Shown here: one piece after another, positions 4,349 through 33,740 of the stretch
Layout of the letters: each line of letters opens with the position of its first letter
How positions within the stretch are numbered: the stretch's first letter is position 1
IMG/VR virus record: IMGVR_UViG_3300003321_000658
Span: 1-39,551 of that record
Source: a virus
Strand: one strand, 5' to 3'
Length of the DNA: 39,551 bases
Notes under the pieces: generated by a model
Seen by the model: only the letters and a program-made list of their open reading frames with translations
Told to the model about the DNA's origin: nothing
Database searches by the model: none
Made by a program: the position numbers and the translations under genes

Positions 4349-4537
4349 TTACGCTTGGGTTGCCGCACGCCTCAGTCTTTTACGACAGGCCTCGGAGCAA
4401 TAGTTCCCTGAGCTTCGGAACTCGGCCCCGCACCACGAGCACTCTTTGGCTTTGTAAGGTACTGGTACAATCGGGACTTTGCGGATAGGCACGTCGAAGT
4501 TCGGGATGACCGGCTGGTTGAACTTACTTCGGGCCAT
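4349..4537 (-). CDS. small zinc-ribbon protein
   Basis: This 62-aa protein ends in a compact Cys cluster, CSWCGAEF then YCSEACRKRLRR (C-x2-C ... C-x3-C), a treble-clef/zinc-ribbon pattern often found in small nucleic-acid-binding proteins. The N-terminal half contains the Pro-rich stretch VPIVPVPY. It overlaps the upstream gene by 14 bases and precedes terS. A second small protein at 17795-18082 has the same two elements in reverse order. Function unknown; a packaging or transcription accessory role is a guess. Confidence 0.65.
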   Translation of the reverse strand: MARSKFNQPVIPNFDVPIRKVPIVPVPYKAKECSWCGAEFRSSGNYCSEACRKRLRRAATQA

Positions 4538-4928
4538 CAGCCTCCAAACAGGCGTGCTGGTTCATATGGTTATCACACCACCTGCGGTCCGGGTCCTCGG
4601 CTCTGATTTCCAAACGGGTCTTTTCCCTCCAGGCCTTATCACGCACCAGTTTCGGCCAGTTCTTATGCTTCATGGCCCGGCGGTGTATCTCGTACTGAAT
4701 CGAGGTGCCGGCATTGACGCAGTTATACTGAGGTGCGTTCAACGCCCGATCTTCATGGAATACCGGAGTACTGATGTTGCCCTGGATGATTTGGGCGATT
4801 TGGCTACGTTTGATAAGCTGCGTGCCGATTTTTATAAACTCCTTGCCCTGTTCGACCATCCGCTCGACGGCTTGGGCTTCCCGGTCGGTCAGGCTGATTT
4901 CAGTCTTGTCGATAAGTTTCAATATCAT
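4524..4928 (-). CDS. hypothetical protein downstream of the replication initiator
   Basis: This 134-aa protein begins with MILKLIDKTEISLTDREAQ, followed by an amphipathic helix and a KIGTQLIKRSQI segment. I have seen that style in small phage proteins of unknown function that sit next to replication genes. The C-terminal half is basic and rich in Trp, His and Arg. Its ATG overlaps the initiator stop (ATGA), so it should be translationally coupled to the initiator. No catalytic motif is visible. Confidence 0.65.
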   Translation of the reverse strand: MILKLIDKTEISLTDREAQAVERMVEQGKEFIKIGTQLIKRSQIAQIIQGNISTPVFHEDRALNAPQYNCVNAGTSIQYEIHRRAMKHKNWPKLVRDKAWREKTRLEIRAEDPDRRWCDNHMNQHACLEADGPK

Positions 4929-5674
4929 CTCACTACTCCTATGCTACTGGCTCCGTGTTTCCGCTGACCCCAGGCGATTAACTGCGTGGTCTTGGCCTGT
5001 AGGTCACAGAAGTCGGCGATGCGTGGGGCGTATTGATCTGTCTGTGTCAGGGCCACACCCTTAATCAGCTGGGTCAGCTTCTCCGGTCCGTATTTTTTAA
5101 GCATGTTATGGGCGGCGAAGCGATTGGCCTTGACCTTGGACTCGATATTGAACCCGACCTCCTGGGCCCAAAAGTCAAATACCTCATTTATCTGAACCTT
5201 GCCATAACGCTCCGGAGCCGTAGGCTCCAATACGTCAGTATTATTATCTACTGTAATTCTATTGTTATTCTCGCCCCTGTTATTCGACACATTTTGGGAC
5301 ACTTGGTCCCTTTTTGGGACACTTGGTTTCATTTTGGGACGCTTTGCTTGTCCCACTTTGGGACGAGTGTCCCGGCTTGGGACAGTTTCCAAATAAGCGA
5401 TGCTGATATAGGCGTCGGAGCACTTGTAGCCACCCTCTAATTTTATAAGCAGTTCTCGGTCGAGCAGTTCCTTTATGTGGCGGTGGACCGAAGTCTTGGT
5501 ATCGCCCAGGTCCGCGGCGATGGCCCGGACGCTCTTGCTACAGAACCCGAACTTGGCGCTCAGGTGGTAAATCATATCCAGTAGCACGTACTGGGCCCAG
5601 CTGATATCGAGCTGTTCCCGGACGCCGTAGTGGAGCGTCGAGTACCTCGGCTTCTGATTGTCTTGATTGGTCAT
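4925..5674 (-). CDS. replication initiator-like protein (winged HTH plus C-terminal helical domain)
   Basis: This 249-aa protein has an N-terminal winged helix-turn-helix (about residues 28-80; SVRAIAADLGDTKTSVHRHI then a wing), a polar linker (about 97-160), and a helical C-terminal domain (165-238) with YAPRIADF and a terminal LIAWGQRK. That layout matches phage O/DnaD-type initiators, which bind the origin and recruit host helicase. The start is set at 5674 because the ATG at 5734 lies upstream of the predicted transcription start, and GAGGG is seven bases before 5674. The linker-coding DNA carries 20-bp phased repeats. No polymerase or helicase gene was found, so this is probably the only dedicated replication protein. 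A transcription regulator is the main alternative. Confidence 0.72.
   Translation of the reverse strand: MTNQDNQKPRYSTLHYGVREQLDISWAQYVLLDMIYHLSAKFGFCSKSVRAIAADLGDTKTSVHRHIKELLDRELLIKLEGGYKCSDAYISIAYLETVPSRDTRPKVGQAKRPKMKPSVPKRDQVSQNVSNNRGENNNRITVDNNTDVLEPTAPERYGKVQINEVFDFWAQEVGFNIESKVKANRFAAHNMLKKYGPEKLTQLIKGVALTQTDQYAPRIADFCDLQAKTTQLIAWGQRKHGASSIGVVR
5291..5383. repeat. iteron-like repeats inside the initiator gene (candidate origin)
   Basis: On the plus strand TTTTGGGAC recurs at 5292-5300, 5312-5320 and 5332-5340, exactly 20 bp apart. Two degenerate copies follow (TTTGGGAC at 5357-5364, CTTGGGAC at 5376-5383), with inverted GTCCC half-sites between them. The first two units share GGGACACTTGGT. 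The 20-bp period is not a multiple of three, so each copy is read in a different codon frame and the repetition is not a protein-level repeat. They lie in the linker-coding part (residues about 97-128), as the lambda ori iterons do in gene O. Confidence 0.7.
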
Positions 5675-5699
5675 AAAAGAGCCCTCGCTTTGAGGGCTC
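5675..5699 (-). promoter_or_regulatory. hairpin sequestering the initiator ribosome-binding site
   Basis: On the minus strand GAGCCCTC-AAAGC-GAGGGCTC forms a perfect 8-bp stem followed by TTTT and then the ATG at 5674. The only Shine-Dalgarno-like element (GAGGG, complement of 5682-5686) lies in the 3' arm, seven bases from the ATG. The structure can therefore both hide the ribosome-binding site and act as a weak intrinsic terminator, which points to post-transcriptional control of initiator dosage. Confidence 0.65.
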
Positions 5700-5715
5700 A
5701 GGAGATCTGTGTTTT

Positions 5716-5818
5716 GTCCTATCGTGGTATGCAATTAAGATACCACACCTTAACACAGGTGTCAAAACCCTCGTTTATTTTATTGATGTTGAGGGCACCA
5801 ATCTACCACGATTAGGAC
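5716..5818 (-). promoter_or_regulatory. initiator promoter with nested inverted repeats (operators)
   Basis: Minus-strand -35 TTGACA (5760-5765) and -10 TATCTT (5737-5742) are separated by 17 bp, giving a start near 5730. ACACCT-N6-AGGTGT (5745-5762) lies between and over the boxes, and GTGGTAT-N9-ATACCAC (5724-5746) covers the -10. An outer pair, GTCCTATCGTGGTA (5716-5729) and TACCACGATTAGGAC (5804-5818), is an inverted repeat with one extra base and flanks the promoter. CCCTC/GAGGG and GATTAG/CTAATC pairs lie further out. The arrangement suggests tight repression by one or more dimeric regulators, possibly with looping. Regulator unknown. Confidence 0.65.
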
Positions 5819-5880
5819 ACCCTTTAACTATCTAATCATAACACAGCCGCAAGCGGAAAGCTAACGTTTTACCTCTGTTA

Positions 5881-6217
5881 TTATCCCCAGCTGTGCATAA
5901 AAAAGTGGATAACTCGGCTGGGACGCTGCCGGTAGTGTATCGAAAACCGCCGGCTCCCCTAGGGCTCTAGTCTAAGGCGAGTTATCGGCGGTTTTCAGAT
6001 AAGCATGATGCAACGGGGCACCGCAACATCGGGTGGGTCCACCACGTACGCCGGCAGGGTTCGCCCGGCGCGAAGGCCGTTTGAAATAACCAAGCTCGCT
6101 ATCGGTTCACCCTTGAATTCGAACCCCGAAAGGTAAGATCTCGAAGGCTTAGTGGCCGCGAAGGCACCTATGGACCCAAGCCGAGAATAACATAGTTATG
6201 CCCGGTTTTTATCCACA
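5881..6217. other. DnaA-box-like sites flanking the intergenic region (candidate origin)
   Basis: A perfect TTATCCACA lies at 6209-6217. Near matches are TTATCCCCA (5881-5889), TTATGCACA on the minus strand (5892-5900) and TTATCCACT on the minus strand (5904-5912). Together with the AT-rich stretch 6226-6300 and the neighbouring initiator gene they suggest a DnaA-assisted origin. The boxes bracket a GC-rich, highly foldable core. Confidence 0.5.
5899..6184 (-). ncRNA. candidate structured RNA of about 285 nt between the divergent arms
   Basis: No ORF fits here. Strong pairing is seen. TCGG-g-TGGGTCCA (6029-6041) pairs with TGGACCCA-ag-CCGA (6171-6184), closing about 130 nt. CGCCGG (6049-6054) pairs with 6065-6070, and TCGGTTC (6102-6108) with 6121-6129. 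In addition 5908-5916 pairs with 5978-5986 (9 bp) and 5942-5951 with 5987-5996 (10 bp), in crossing order, a pseudoknot with no bases between the two 3' arms. The minus strand is favoured: TTGTGG (6213-6218) and TATGTT (6189-6194), 18 bp apart, would start RNA at the base of the long helix, and the 3' end has T6 (5899-5904) after the pseudoknot. It matches no family I know (not tRNA, tmRNA or RNase P by its consensus boxes). Confidence 0.45.
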
Positions 6218-6256
6218 ATCCACAGCTTTTGTAGTGAATTATACAGTAGCATTTTG

Positions 6257-6285
6257 TTGGTACTTTGGTAAGTACTTGGTATCAT
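6257..6285 (+). promoter_or_regulatory. promoter and TTGGTA repeats before the rightward arm
   Basis: TTGGTA occurs three times (6257-6262, 6265-6270, 6276-6281). The first copy, 17 bp before TATCAT (6280-6285), forms a plausible sigma70 promoter for the rightward operon, with a leader of about 22 bases before the ATG at 6314. The other copies could be regulator half-sites. Confidence 0.45.
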
Positions 6286-6313
6286 TAAAGTAATAAAAAG
6301 GTAAGGTCGCACA

Positions 6314-6619
6314 ATGTTACGCAATACCTCTAAGCCATTTCAAGTCTGCCGGCAGCGTTGCCCCGAGTGCGGGAGCAAGGTCATCCTTTGGCTGTACCCC
6401 AACAAGTGGGCTGGCATCTTCGAGTGCCTCAACGAGCACTGTGCTACCACCTGGTCCTGCGAGCACGACGACGTCCGAATCGAGACCGTCGAGCCGTGGC
6501 CGACTTCACCGCTCGACAATCCTATCGAAACTGAGATCTACGTCTGCAACGCCTGCGGCGTGACCGTCGAGGACCGGGACCCGGTACTGGATAGACTCGA
6601 GGCCGCTTATGATGACTAA
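6314..6619 (+). CDS. zinc-ribbon protein, first gene of the rightward arm
   Basis: This 101-aa protein has a likely zinc ribbon: C-x3-CPEC near residues 12-19, CLNEHC around 38-43 with SCEH just after, and a later CNACG near 79-83. The rest is acidic. It is the first gene after the rightward promoter, where early phage regulators or host take-over proteins often lie. AAGG lies about ten bases before the ATG. The end overlaps the next gene by 11 bases. Function not recognised; nucleic-acid or protein binding through the ribbon is an inference. Confidence 0.7.
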   Translation: MLRNTSKPFQVCRQRCPECGSKVILWLYPNKWAGIFECLNEHCATTWSCEHDDVRIETVEPWPTSPLDNPIETEIYVCNACGVTVEDRDPVLDRLEAAYDD

Positions 6620-11367: not shown

Positions 11368-11459
11368 ACTGACCGTATATGGTTCTCCCCTGCTCCGCCC
11401 ATGGATGTCCCCTGTTTTTTAATTAACACCTTAAAATAAATTTGATTTTTTATCAAATC

Positions 11460-11498
11460 GGGGCAGGGAAGTGCCCTGCACCCCTGTTATTTTTTTAT
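11460..11498 (+). terminator. intrinsic terminator after the lysis genes (+ strand)
   Basis: GGGGCAGGG-AAGTG-CCCTGCACCCC forms a stem (5 bp plus 4 bp around a small bulge), followed within a few bases by a run of T residues (11489-11497). It would stop rightward transcription leaving the lysis cassette. A second foldable element (ATTTGAT/ATCAAAT, about 11440-11458) lies just before it. Confidence 0.65.
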
Positions 11499-11587
11499 TG
11501 CCAAAAAGTCAAAAAAATGGCCGGGGGAGTGCCGGGGAAGTGGTATCAGGGGGCTAGTTGGCCCAGATCACTGGTATTATCCGGGTG

Positions 11588-11618
11588 AATAAAAACCCGG
11601 CTCAATCGCCAGCCGGGT
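11588..11618 (-). terminator. intrinsic terminator (- strand) downstream of the 69-aa gene
   Basis: ACCCGGCT-N8-AGCCGGGT is a perfect 8-bp stem (11595-11618). Read on the minus strand it is followed by TTTTTATT. It fits termination of the leftward transcript from the gene at 11901-12110. Confidence 0.65.
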
Positions 11619-11659
11619 CGCCTCTCGTGTATCTTTTTTGTGAGGTGGATTCTTATTTG

Positions 11660-11793
11660 ATATTAGGCGGGACCGTAGGCCATACGCTTCCTTTGCTTTC
11701 GCATCAGCGGCCATAGTCCCGCTTCTATTATAAATTAAAAGCCGCCCGGGTAGTGGGAGTCCGGGCAGCAGTCCCGCTTTTGTTTTTGTTTGT
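11660..11793. other. non-coding stretch with two further hairpins, one terminator-like on +
   Basis: GCGGGAC (11667-11673) pairs with GTCCCGC (11716-11722) around a 42-base loop. A second stem-loop joins AAAAGC (11737-11742) to GCTTTT (11776-11781) with an inner GCCCGG/CCGGGC pair, and is followed by TTTTGTTTTTG, so it can terminate rightward transcripts. AGTCCCGCTT is repeated at about 11715 and 11770. No gene is visible on + between 11133 and 12193; the region may hold terminators or a small RNA. Confidence 0.4.
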
Positions 11794-11900
11794 TTTGGTT
11801 AGGTTGATATTTGCGAGTCGTGCGAGACGAAAAATGATTTTGGTTTTACACTACTCGCTTCTATTGTAAGTTGCCCGGCCCAACCGGACTGTGAAATATG

Positions 11901-31498: not shown

Positions 31499-31907
31499 TT
31501 TGCGACCTGGCTTTTAATTCGGTTGATGATAACGAGCCCACTCTTGGAATATAAACCAAAGCGATGCGGTTGGCATCTAAAAAATCCTGGTCGACGTCGA
31601 TTTGGGAGTAGTAGTCCTTGCGGGCCCAGTCGCTCCCGATGGCGATGACGTCCGGCTGGATTTCTTCGATTAGCTCCCGGCCGGCACTGGAATTCTTGAC
31701 CACCACGTAGCCCAGGCTTTCGATGAGGTTGGCCCGCTCGGCGTACTCATATAAAGGACGCCTGCCTTTGTAGCTTTCGACGAACTCGTCGGAATTGACG
31801 CCCACCACCACGTTCTCGCCATAACGCTCGCACTCTTTGAGCAGGATGGCGTGGCCCATGTGGGGCGTGTCGAACGTCCCCATGGTCAGGACGGTGCGTT
31901 CTTTCAC
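31482..31907 (-). CDS. cytidylyltransferase-family nucleotidyltransferase (TagD/RfaE-like)
   Basis: A 141-aa enzyme with GTFDTPHMGH (10-19), the GxFDxxHxGH motif of the cytidylyltransferase family. SDEFVESYKGRRPLYEYAER follows, then GSDWARKDYY, then VGSLSSTELKAR (near 125-136), the counterpart of the ISTTxIxxR motif. Relatives make CDP-glycerol, CDP-choline or nucleotide-activated heptose. Length is normal for TagD-type enzymes. Its stop lies just inside the methyltransferase gene and its start overlaps the GroEL stop by four bases. It probably supplies an activated building block for the neighbouring transferases. Confidence 0.82.
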   Translation of the reverse strand: MKERTVLTMGTFDTPHMGHAILLKECERYGENVVVGVNSDEFVESYKGRRPLYEYAERANLIESLGYVVVKNSSAGRELIEEIQPDVIAIGSDWARKDYYSQIDVDQDFLDANRIALVYIPRVGSLSSTELKARSQNGQSS

Positions 31908-33478
31908 TCGGCCCCCACGACCAAGGCACCGGCGGTCATGCCGACCACGCCCAAACTGACGGCGGTTTCCAGGGCCTGCCTGGTTACCCGGTATGGATCT
32001 ACGATGCCGACTTTGACCAGCTCGATGGTCTTGCCGGTCTTGACGTCGATTCCCTTGAGCGGACTGGTGATTTTCTGCGAAGGCTGGTTTATGGCACCCT
32101 CAGCTTCGTCTATATCCAGGCCGGAGTTGGCGACTAGCTGTTTGAACGGTTCCTGCAGGACGGTCTTGAGCAGTTTGGCACCCTCGGTCTTGCCGGTGAT
32201 TGGCGACAGGTAGAGCGGGACGCCTCCGCCAGGCAGGTAGCCGTCGCTCATGGCGGCCTTAGTGGCGGCCACGGCGTCGTCGACCCTGAACTTCTTCTCC
32301 TCGATTTCGGTCTCGGTCTGTCCGCCCACCCGAATCATGGCGACCTTGCCTTCCAGGTTGGCCTTGCGTTTTTCAAGCTGTTCCTTGTCGTACTCGCTGG
32401 GAGCGTTCTTGATTTGCTCGGCCAGCCAGTCCACCCGGCCGGCTAAATCGCCCTCGACGCCGATGAAGGTGGTCTTGTCGCGCGTAGCGATGACCTTCTC
32501 GGCCCGGCCGACATGCTCCATGGTGGCGTTCTCCAGTGAGACTGTGTCTTCGGAAATAACGGTGGCGCCGGTCACGGCCGCCAGGTCGTCGAGTATCTTA
32601 CGCTGCTGGGCCCCGAAGCTCGGAGCCTTGATGGCGATGGACCGGAAAGTGCCCTGGGTGGAATTCAGGACCATCGAGGGCAGGGCGTCGCCTTCGATGT
32701 CCTCGGCGATGACCACGCACTCCTTGATGCCGGCCTGGTCGATGTGGCCGAATATCGGCAGGATTTCCCGGAAGGAATAGACCTTGCGGTGCATGATGAG
32801 TATCGCCGGCTTGTTGGCCAGCACGGCCTCGCCCCGGGAATCGTCGGTCACCATATAAGGGCTCAGCCAGCCCCGCTCCAATTGCAGGCCGGTCGCCATC
32901 TCGGTGGTGGTCTCCCGCTGCATGACCTGGTCGACGGTCACGGTCCCGGCCGGTCCGACCTGGTGGACGGTCTCAGCCACGACCTTGCCGATTTCCTCGT
33001 CGTTGCCGCCGGAGATGGTGGCGATCTTGGTCAGCGTCTCCAAGTCATCGGCCGGCTTCTTCAGCTTTTCGAGATAGGCCAGGACCTCGTCGAGAGCTTC
33101 CTCGACTTCCCGGGCGAGCACCATCGGGTTCATGCCTTCCTCGATTTTCTTGGCCGCCTGGGCGAGCAGGTGGTAAGTCAGGACCGTGACAGTGGTGGTG
33201 CCGTCCCCGGCCACGTCGTTGAGCTTGTTGGCGGCTTCTTTTATAAGTTCCTCGCCGATGTTCTCAGCCTCGTCCTTCAGACTGATGGACTTGGCGACGG
33301 TCACGCCGTCGTGGGTGACGGTCGGTCCGAGTCCGCGCCGGCCGATGACGACGTTGCGACCTTTCGGTCCGAGCGTCGTCTTGACGGCGTTATACAGCTT
33401 CTCGGCTCCGGCCAGGAGCTTGTCCCGGGCCTCCTTGTCGAAAAATAAATCAGTAGTCTGCGGGTTCGTCGGTTGCAT
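31904..33478 (-). CDS. groEL: phage-encoded chaperonin GroEL
   Basis: A 524-aa group I chaperonin, full length except for the Gly-Gly-Met tail. Motifs are TTLGPKGRNVVI (34-45), GDGTTT (91-96, ATP site), FRVDDAVAATKAAM (397-410, catalytic Asp) and YLPGGGVPLYL (414-424). The end GIVDPYRVTRQALETAVSL (491-509) is also conserved. The 14-mer barrel would fold virion proteins with the co-encoded GroES. The ATG lies 29 bases inside the GroES gene, with AGGAAGG upstream. Complete groEL genes are uncommon in phages, and GroEL/GroES pairs more so. Confidence 0.95.
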   Translation of the reverse strand: MQPTNPQTTDLFFDKEARDKLLAGAEKLYNAVKTTLGPKGRNVVIGRRGLGPTVTHDGVTVAKSISLKDEAENIGEELIKEAANKLNDVAGDGTTTVTVLTYHLLAQAAKKIEEGMNPMVLAREVEEALDEVLAYLEKLKKPADDLETLTKIATISGGNDEEIGKVVAETVHQVGPAGTVTVDQVMQRETTTEMATGLQLERGWLSPYMVTDDSRGEAVLANKPAILIMHRKVYSFREILPIFGHIDQAGIKECVVIAEDIEGDALPSMVLNSTQGTFRSIAIKAPSFGAQQRKILDDLAAVTGATVISEDTVSLENATMEHVGRAEKVIATRDKTTFIGVEGDLAGRVDWLAEQIKNAPSEYDKEQLEKRKANLEGKVAMIRVGGQTETEIEEKKFRVDDAVAATKAAMSDGYLPGGGVPLYLSPITGKTEGAKLLKTVLQEPFKQLVANSGLDIDEAEGAINQPSQKITSPLKGIDVKTGKTIELVKVGIVDPYRVTRQALETAVSLGVVGMTAGALVVGAE

Positions 33479-33740
33479 CTTTGAGCCTTCCTAGGACATC
33501 GTCCCATGCTATTAAATAGTGTTCCTCGCCGTTTAAGTTGACCTCGGTCATGGCGTAGGGCTTATAAATAACTAAATCGCCGACTTTAAAGGGGACTTGT
33601 TCCCCGACGGCGATTACTTCTGCTAGTTTCGGTGCTTCGGCTGAGCCGTCACTAAGCAGGAAGGACCCGACTTGGGTTTCTTTTTTGCTTGGTTTGGCCA
33701 GCAGATAGCCCCGGGACGGTTCTATGGTCTGCGTTGGCAT
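33450..33740 (-). CDS. groES: phage-encoded co-chaperonin GroES
   Basis: A 96-aa lid for the GroEL ring. The pattern IEPSRGYLLAKPSKKE, then LAEVIAVGEQVPFKVGDLVIY, then EEHYLIAWDDVLG is that of Cpn10. The mobile loop (about 17-33, KKETQVGSFLLSD) has GSFLL where bacterial GroES has GGIVL, keeping the hydrophobic triplet that binds GroEL. Its first 89 bases overlap the glycosyltransferase end in another frame, and it overlaps GroEL by 29 bases. GroES then GroEL order is as in bacteria. Confidence 0.9.
   Translation of the reverse strand: MPTQTIEPSRGYLLAKPSKKETQVGSFLLSDGSAEAPKLAEVIAVGEQVPFKVGDLVIYKPYAMTEVNLNGEEHYLIAWDDVLGRLKDATDEPADY

Follow-up and report, generated by a model that had tools for sequence, protein, structure and literature searches.

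A candidate DnaA-responsive control region with a structured core in a phage of probable Saccharibacteria host

Gene layout, host and replication genes

The virus contig IMGVR_UViG_3300003321_000658, analysed over its whole 39.5-kb length (hereafter the window), carries two divergent gene blocks separated by an intergenic region at 5735–6313. The leftward genes (5.7–1 kb and 39.5–18 kb) code for the initiator, terminase, capsid, tail and GroEL/GroES, the last two both being phage-encoded at 31904–33740, while the rightward genes (about 6.3–17.5 kb) code for a zinc-ribbon protein, a CHAP endolysin, a YqaJ exonuclease, a recombination mediator and a DNA methyltransferase. The first gene of the rightward block (6314–6619, plus strand) encodes the zinc-ribbon-like protein and has a homologue in the related phage L016. 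Outside IMG/VR, the nearest large terminase subunit (69% identity) was found in a Candidatus Saccharibacteria MAG, on a prophage-like contig with an integrase-like ORF nearby, and the host of the phage is therefore most likely a member of the Saccharibacteria. In the related phages L016 (7576–7755) and L012 (7997–8795), tRNA genes or degenerate tRNA-like structures that have a CTCATAA-like loop in common are located in non-coding sequence upstream of the small terminase gene.

The gene at 4925–5734 (minus strand) encodes a replication initiator or DnaD-like helicase loader of the DnaD/O type, with matches to PHROG 428, 186 and 270 (E 6e-8 to 1e-6) and also to PHROG 345, and with relatives in viral contigs. 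The promoter scan placed a promoter-like site for it at 5737–5765 on the minus strand (TTGACA-17-TATCTT, with a TG element), around which we observed an operator-like perfect inverted repeat, ATCGTGGTA/TACCACGAT, at 5721–5729 and 5804–5812. Within the gene lie five 19-nt direct repeats at a spacing of about 20 nt (5286–5387, core TTTTGGGACAC), which are tandem iterons, would be bound by the initiator and are probably an origin of the lambda type. Since these iterons sit inside the initiator gene, the structured element described below is probably a control region upstream of the iteron origin and distinct from it. Related initiator genes are preceded by a different conserved structured-looking leader in the contigs L002 (2700–3290), L003 (5100–5800), L004 (4900–5725) and L005 (300–845); this leader carries CGGTGTTGTGAGTTCCGG...GAGGTAAG... 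and seems worth a covariation study.

A structured, non-coding element in the intergenic region

The structured element spans 5889–6227 and is closed by the inverted arms AGCTGTG/CACAGCT. Its GC content is 55%, as compared with 41% and 31% in the flanks, and the core between the DnaA boxes is a GC-rich segment of 270 nt, which has a GC content near that of the genome as a whole and contains nested helices in addition to those of the boxes. The 31% flank is the AT-rich stretch beside the DnaA boxes (6228–6313), which holds a rightward promoter-like site at 6257–6285 and a leftward TATAAT. The first-pass annotation had described about 285 bases without an ORF (5899–6184) at the divergent control region beside the initiator gene, and both the position and the lack of coding potential were borne out: the longest ORF (6005–6136, plus strand) has 43 aa and a negative codon score, and the codon scores together with a six-frame Pfam search that gave no match rule out a coding remnant.

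Folded as RNA, the whole element gave a z value of −4.08 on the minus strand and of about −3.8 on both strands in the survey of the window, and folded as DNA a z value of −3.08, all of them inflated by the fact that the ends at 5889 and 6227 were picked after inspection of the sequence. The strong folding attributed earlier to 5899–6184 is clear only over this longer extent (about −4), whereas that segment by itself folds modestly, with z values of −1.85 (plus) and −2.48 (minus); 17% and 9% of the other segments of the window, respectively, fall below roughly these values, at 10 shuffles each. Given a survey mean of −0.7 and a standard deviation of 1.3 (10 shuffles per segment, and so noisy), the extended element stands out and 5899–6184 does so only moderately. 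When the DnaA boxes were left out (5913–6185), z values of −2.73 and −2.66 were obtained. The two strands fold to the same degree, which is what inverted repeats in DNA would give, and the outermost helices are made of the DnaA boxes, which pair simply because they are inverted. Folding alone therefore neither points to a strand nor tells an RNA apart from a control region acting as DNA. Elsewhere in the window, a second structured non-coding region was observed at 11420–11900 (minus-strand fold z −4.25); it contains a pair of stretches that resemble each other, TATAATAGAAGCGGGAC and TACAATAGAAGCGAG, and that look like −10 sites together with start regions of small RNAs.

Rfam gave no match in the window at the gathering threshold, nor in 5700–6400 up to an E value of 10, which rules out a known RNA family, as had been suspected from the sequence. 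ARAGORN found neither tRNA nor tmRNA in the window.

The pseudoknot and the long-range helix are alternative folds

Two perfect crossing helices are present in the element. The first, of 9 bp, pairs GATAACTCG (5908–5916, plus) with CGAGTTATC (5978–5986, plus), and the second pairs GAAAACCGCCG (5942–5952, plus) with CGGCGGTTTTC (5986–5996, plus) over 11 bp, one more than had been reported; their 3' arms do abut, with base 5986 common to both. The crossing-helix sum was equalled in only one of 4000 dinucleotide shuffles, and a sum of 17 bp is attained nowhere else in the window. A 17-nt stretch at the pseudoknot junction recurs in four viral contigs, where the similarity ends with it, and was attributed to chance.

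The long-range helix was described as a 12-bp pairing, but no perfect helix of that length was found; what exists is CTCGGCT/AGCCGAG (7 bp) followed past a bulge by GGG/CCC (3 bp), stacked on GTGGATAA/TTATCCAC (8 bp), with the 5' strand at 5905–5922 (plus) and the partners at 6176–6185 and 6209–6216. This helix uses 5905–5919, and bases 5908–5919 are common to it and to the pseudoknot, whose first arm also overlaps a DnaA box. Because the long-range helix and the 9-bp helix compete for 5908–5916, they cannot form together, and the element has two mutually exclusive folds. An RNA copy of the core could thus adopt two states.

Host-type DnaA boxes flank the core

DnaA-box-like sites had been noted at both ends of the element, and four are indeed present: TTATCCCCA (5881, plus), TTATGCACA (5892, minus) and TTATCCACT (5904, minus) form a left group at 5881–5912, and TTATCCACA (6209, plus) lies at the right end, in the pair TTTTTATCCACAATCCACAGC (6206–6226, plus). 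The window has 14 such sites that differ from TTATCCACA at no more than one position, four of them within 340 bp at the element. When the element was compared blind by BLAST with 393 Saccharimonadia genomes, the weak matches included the right pair TTTTTATCCACAATCCACAGC, at about 95% to the dnaA–dnaN intergenic region of three Saccharibacteria genomes (L069, L100 and L101). In a search with the DnaA-box pattern, dnaA loci accounted for three of the 13 matches, though the dnaA locus is a tiny fraction of each genome; one genome (G037) is counted in both tallies. These matches at host dnaA loci give good support to the assignment of the boxes as host-type DnaA boxes, that is, as predicted binding sites. 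Together with the iterons in the initiator gene, they strengthen the link to replication that the first-pass annotation had proposed from the closeness to that gene. Two further matches of the pattern (L130 and L131) adjoin pheS-like ORFs, are probably coding and were considered coincidental. Related phages, L012 and L016 among them, have no comparable cluster of DnaA boxes.

At the left border, TTTTACCTCTGTTATT (5867–5882) occurs exactly in seven of 147 Saccharimonadia genomes and in none of the reversed controls, often in intergenic positions near promoter-like sites; it may be an unrecognised host motif carried by the phage, perhaps an operator.

Candidate signals for leftward transcription

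The weak minus-strand promoter proposed earlier stands as far as its −10 element is concerned: a perfect TATAAT lies at 6243–6238, but it has no recognisable −35 and was not reported by the promoter scan. It would put the beginning of the RNA near 6231, 4 nt ahead of the closing helix. On the same strand, the annotated T6 run is present at 5904–5899, directly past the other foot of the closing helix, although no standard terminator hairpin was found there. From these positions, an untranslated transcript about 333 nt long may be predicted, running from near 6231 to the T6 run (5899–6231, minus; fold z −2.49), and the core is probably copied leftward in this form, upstream of the initiator and packaging operon. 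The first-pass annotation is partly supported, and its structured pseudoknot RNA is one among several readings: the helices are real, but the two strands fold alike, no relative offers covariation, the promoter and terminator signals are weak, and the long helix and the pseudoknot exclude each other.

Search for relatives

No homologue of the element was found in Rfam, phages, plasmids, IMG/VR scans (five protein queries and a single DNA pattern), related phage contigs or the 393 Saccharimonadia genomes, except for one identical contig. This contig (L008), from a second sample, begins inside the element at 6013, and its part of the element is 100% identical, which says little since the entire shared stretch is 99.9% identical. 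The lack of a divergent homologue means that there is no covariation. In contigs reached through the initiator (L002–L006), the intergenic leaders are unrelated and show no cluster of boxes, no similar element was found in those reached through the terminase (L009–L056) or in whole related contigs, and the neighbouring proteins at 6314 and 4527–4928 led only to the identical contig. Recurrent BLAST matches of 6068–6111 in host genomes were set aside as chance, the three inspected being in, or overlapping, ordinary protein-coding ORFs.

Interpretation of the element

We propose, with a probability of roughly 0.4, that the element is a DnaA-responsive control region of a Saccharibacteria phage, the core of which is probably transcribed leftward into an untranslated RNA about 330 nt long. 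It would act between the leftward operon of initiator, packaging and structural genes and the rightward operon. Host DnaA would bind the boxes seen at the two ends, the core would be transcribed from the TATAAT at 6243–6238, and DnaA occupancy would gate this transcription, which, by running toward the iteron origin, may assist in opening or priming that origin, or may instead set initiator expression. The RNA core, whose two folds exclude each other, might toggle between the long-range closing helix and the pseudoknot. We counted in favour of this proposal the four DnaA boxes within 340 bp, the oriC match, the iterons, the non-coding GC-rich core, the fold z values, the rarity of the pseudoknot, the TATAAT and T6 signals and the host, and against it the equal folding of the two strands, the lack of a −35 element and of a standard terminator, the lack of a homologue, the separate promoter-like site at 5765 and the lack of a box cluster in L012 and L016.

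The equal folding of the strands, the folding of single-stranded DNA (z −3.08), the resemblance of the boxes to host oriC and the adjacent AT-rich stretch, which is like an unwinding element, would all suit a region that acts as DNA only: an oriC-like DnaA-box region, which might be a second origin or might enhance the one at the iterons, with repeats for protein binding or cruciform formation and an untranscribed core. We regard this as a serious though less likely explanation, because the GC-rich core of 270 nt has nested helices beyond the boxes (z about −2.7 without them) and because the TATAAT lies exactly outside the closing helix.

That same start near 6231, with a pause or stop at the T6 run immediately past the closing helix and release by a phage factor or a structure switch, could describe a structured 5' leader or attenuator of the leftward operon, which contains the initiator, terminase and structural genes; two mutually exclusive conformations would fit such a device. 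We consider it unlikely, as neither a standard terminator hairpin nor an antiterminator gene was identified and the first gene comes with a promoter-like site of its own, at 5765.

A stronger version of the proposed DnaA-responsive region, in which the transcript is a phage RNA of a new kind, about 330 nt long, closed by DnaA boxes, switching between pseudoknot and long helix and coupling host DnaA to replication and leftward transcription, appears improbable. Least probable is an orphan relic or chance structure, a decayed insert with incidental folding, since, although no homologue was found anywhere searched, z values of −1.9 to −2.5 at 5899–6184 are matched in 9–17% of window segments and the core GC is close to the genome mean, the perfect crossing helices arise in one of 4000 shuffles, the frame search gave no coding remnant and, as a weak point given the 99.9% identity of the stretch, the sequence is unchanged from 6013 on in the second sample.

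Comparison with known systems

The late leader of lambda (6S RNA) and similar leaders are terminated leaders of late operons. The element is like them in lying upstream of a long packaging and structural operon, with a structured segment that ends in a T run, and unlike them in that a standard terminator and a Q-like gene were not identified and the first gene here codes for an initiator and has a separate promoter-like site. Being a phage segment that is large, structured and non-coding, it also recalls the large structured phage and bacterial RNAs GOLLD, ROOL and OLE (PMC12286853), from which it differs in having no Rfam match even at an E value of 10. With the Saccharibacteria oriC, the dnaA–dnaN intergenic region of the host, it shares the tandem box TTATCCACAATCCACAGC; the box pair alone is common, however, and the phage core is absent from oriC.

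Iteron replicons with DnaA boxes include the P1 oriR, F and RK2 types, and lambda-type origins lie inside the initiator gene. The phage resembles these systems in that its initiator gene carries five 19-nt iterons spaced about 20 nt apart and in that DnaA boxes lie close by, together with an AT-rich stretch, whereas its boxes lie 500–900 bp from the iterons, across the initiator promoter, and enclose a structured GC-rich core of 270 nt. Our literature search found nothing directly on the replication of Saccharibacteria phages, on which little seems to have been published. A control region in which host-type DnaA boxes surround a structured core, beside an iteron-bearing initiator gene, leads to the testable proposal that the phage reads the replication initiator of its host and, if the core acts as RNA, that it does so with an RNA device tied to DnaA.
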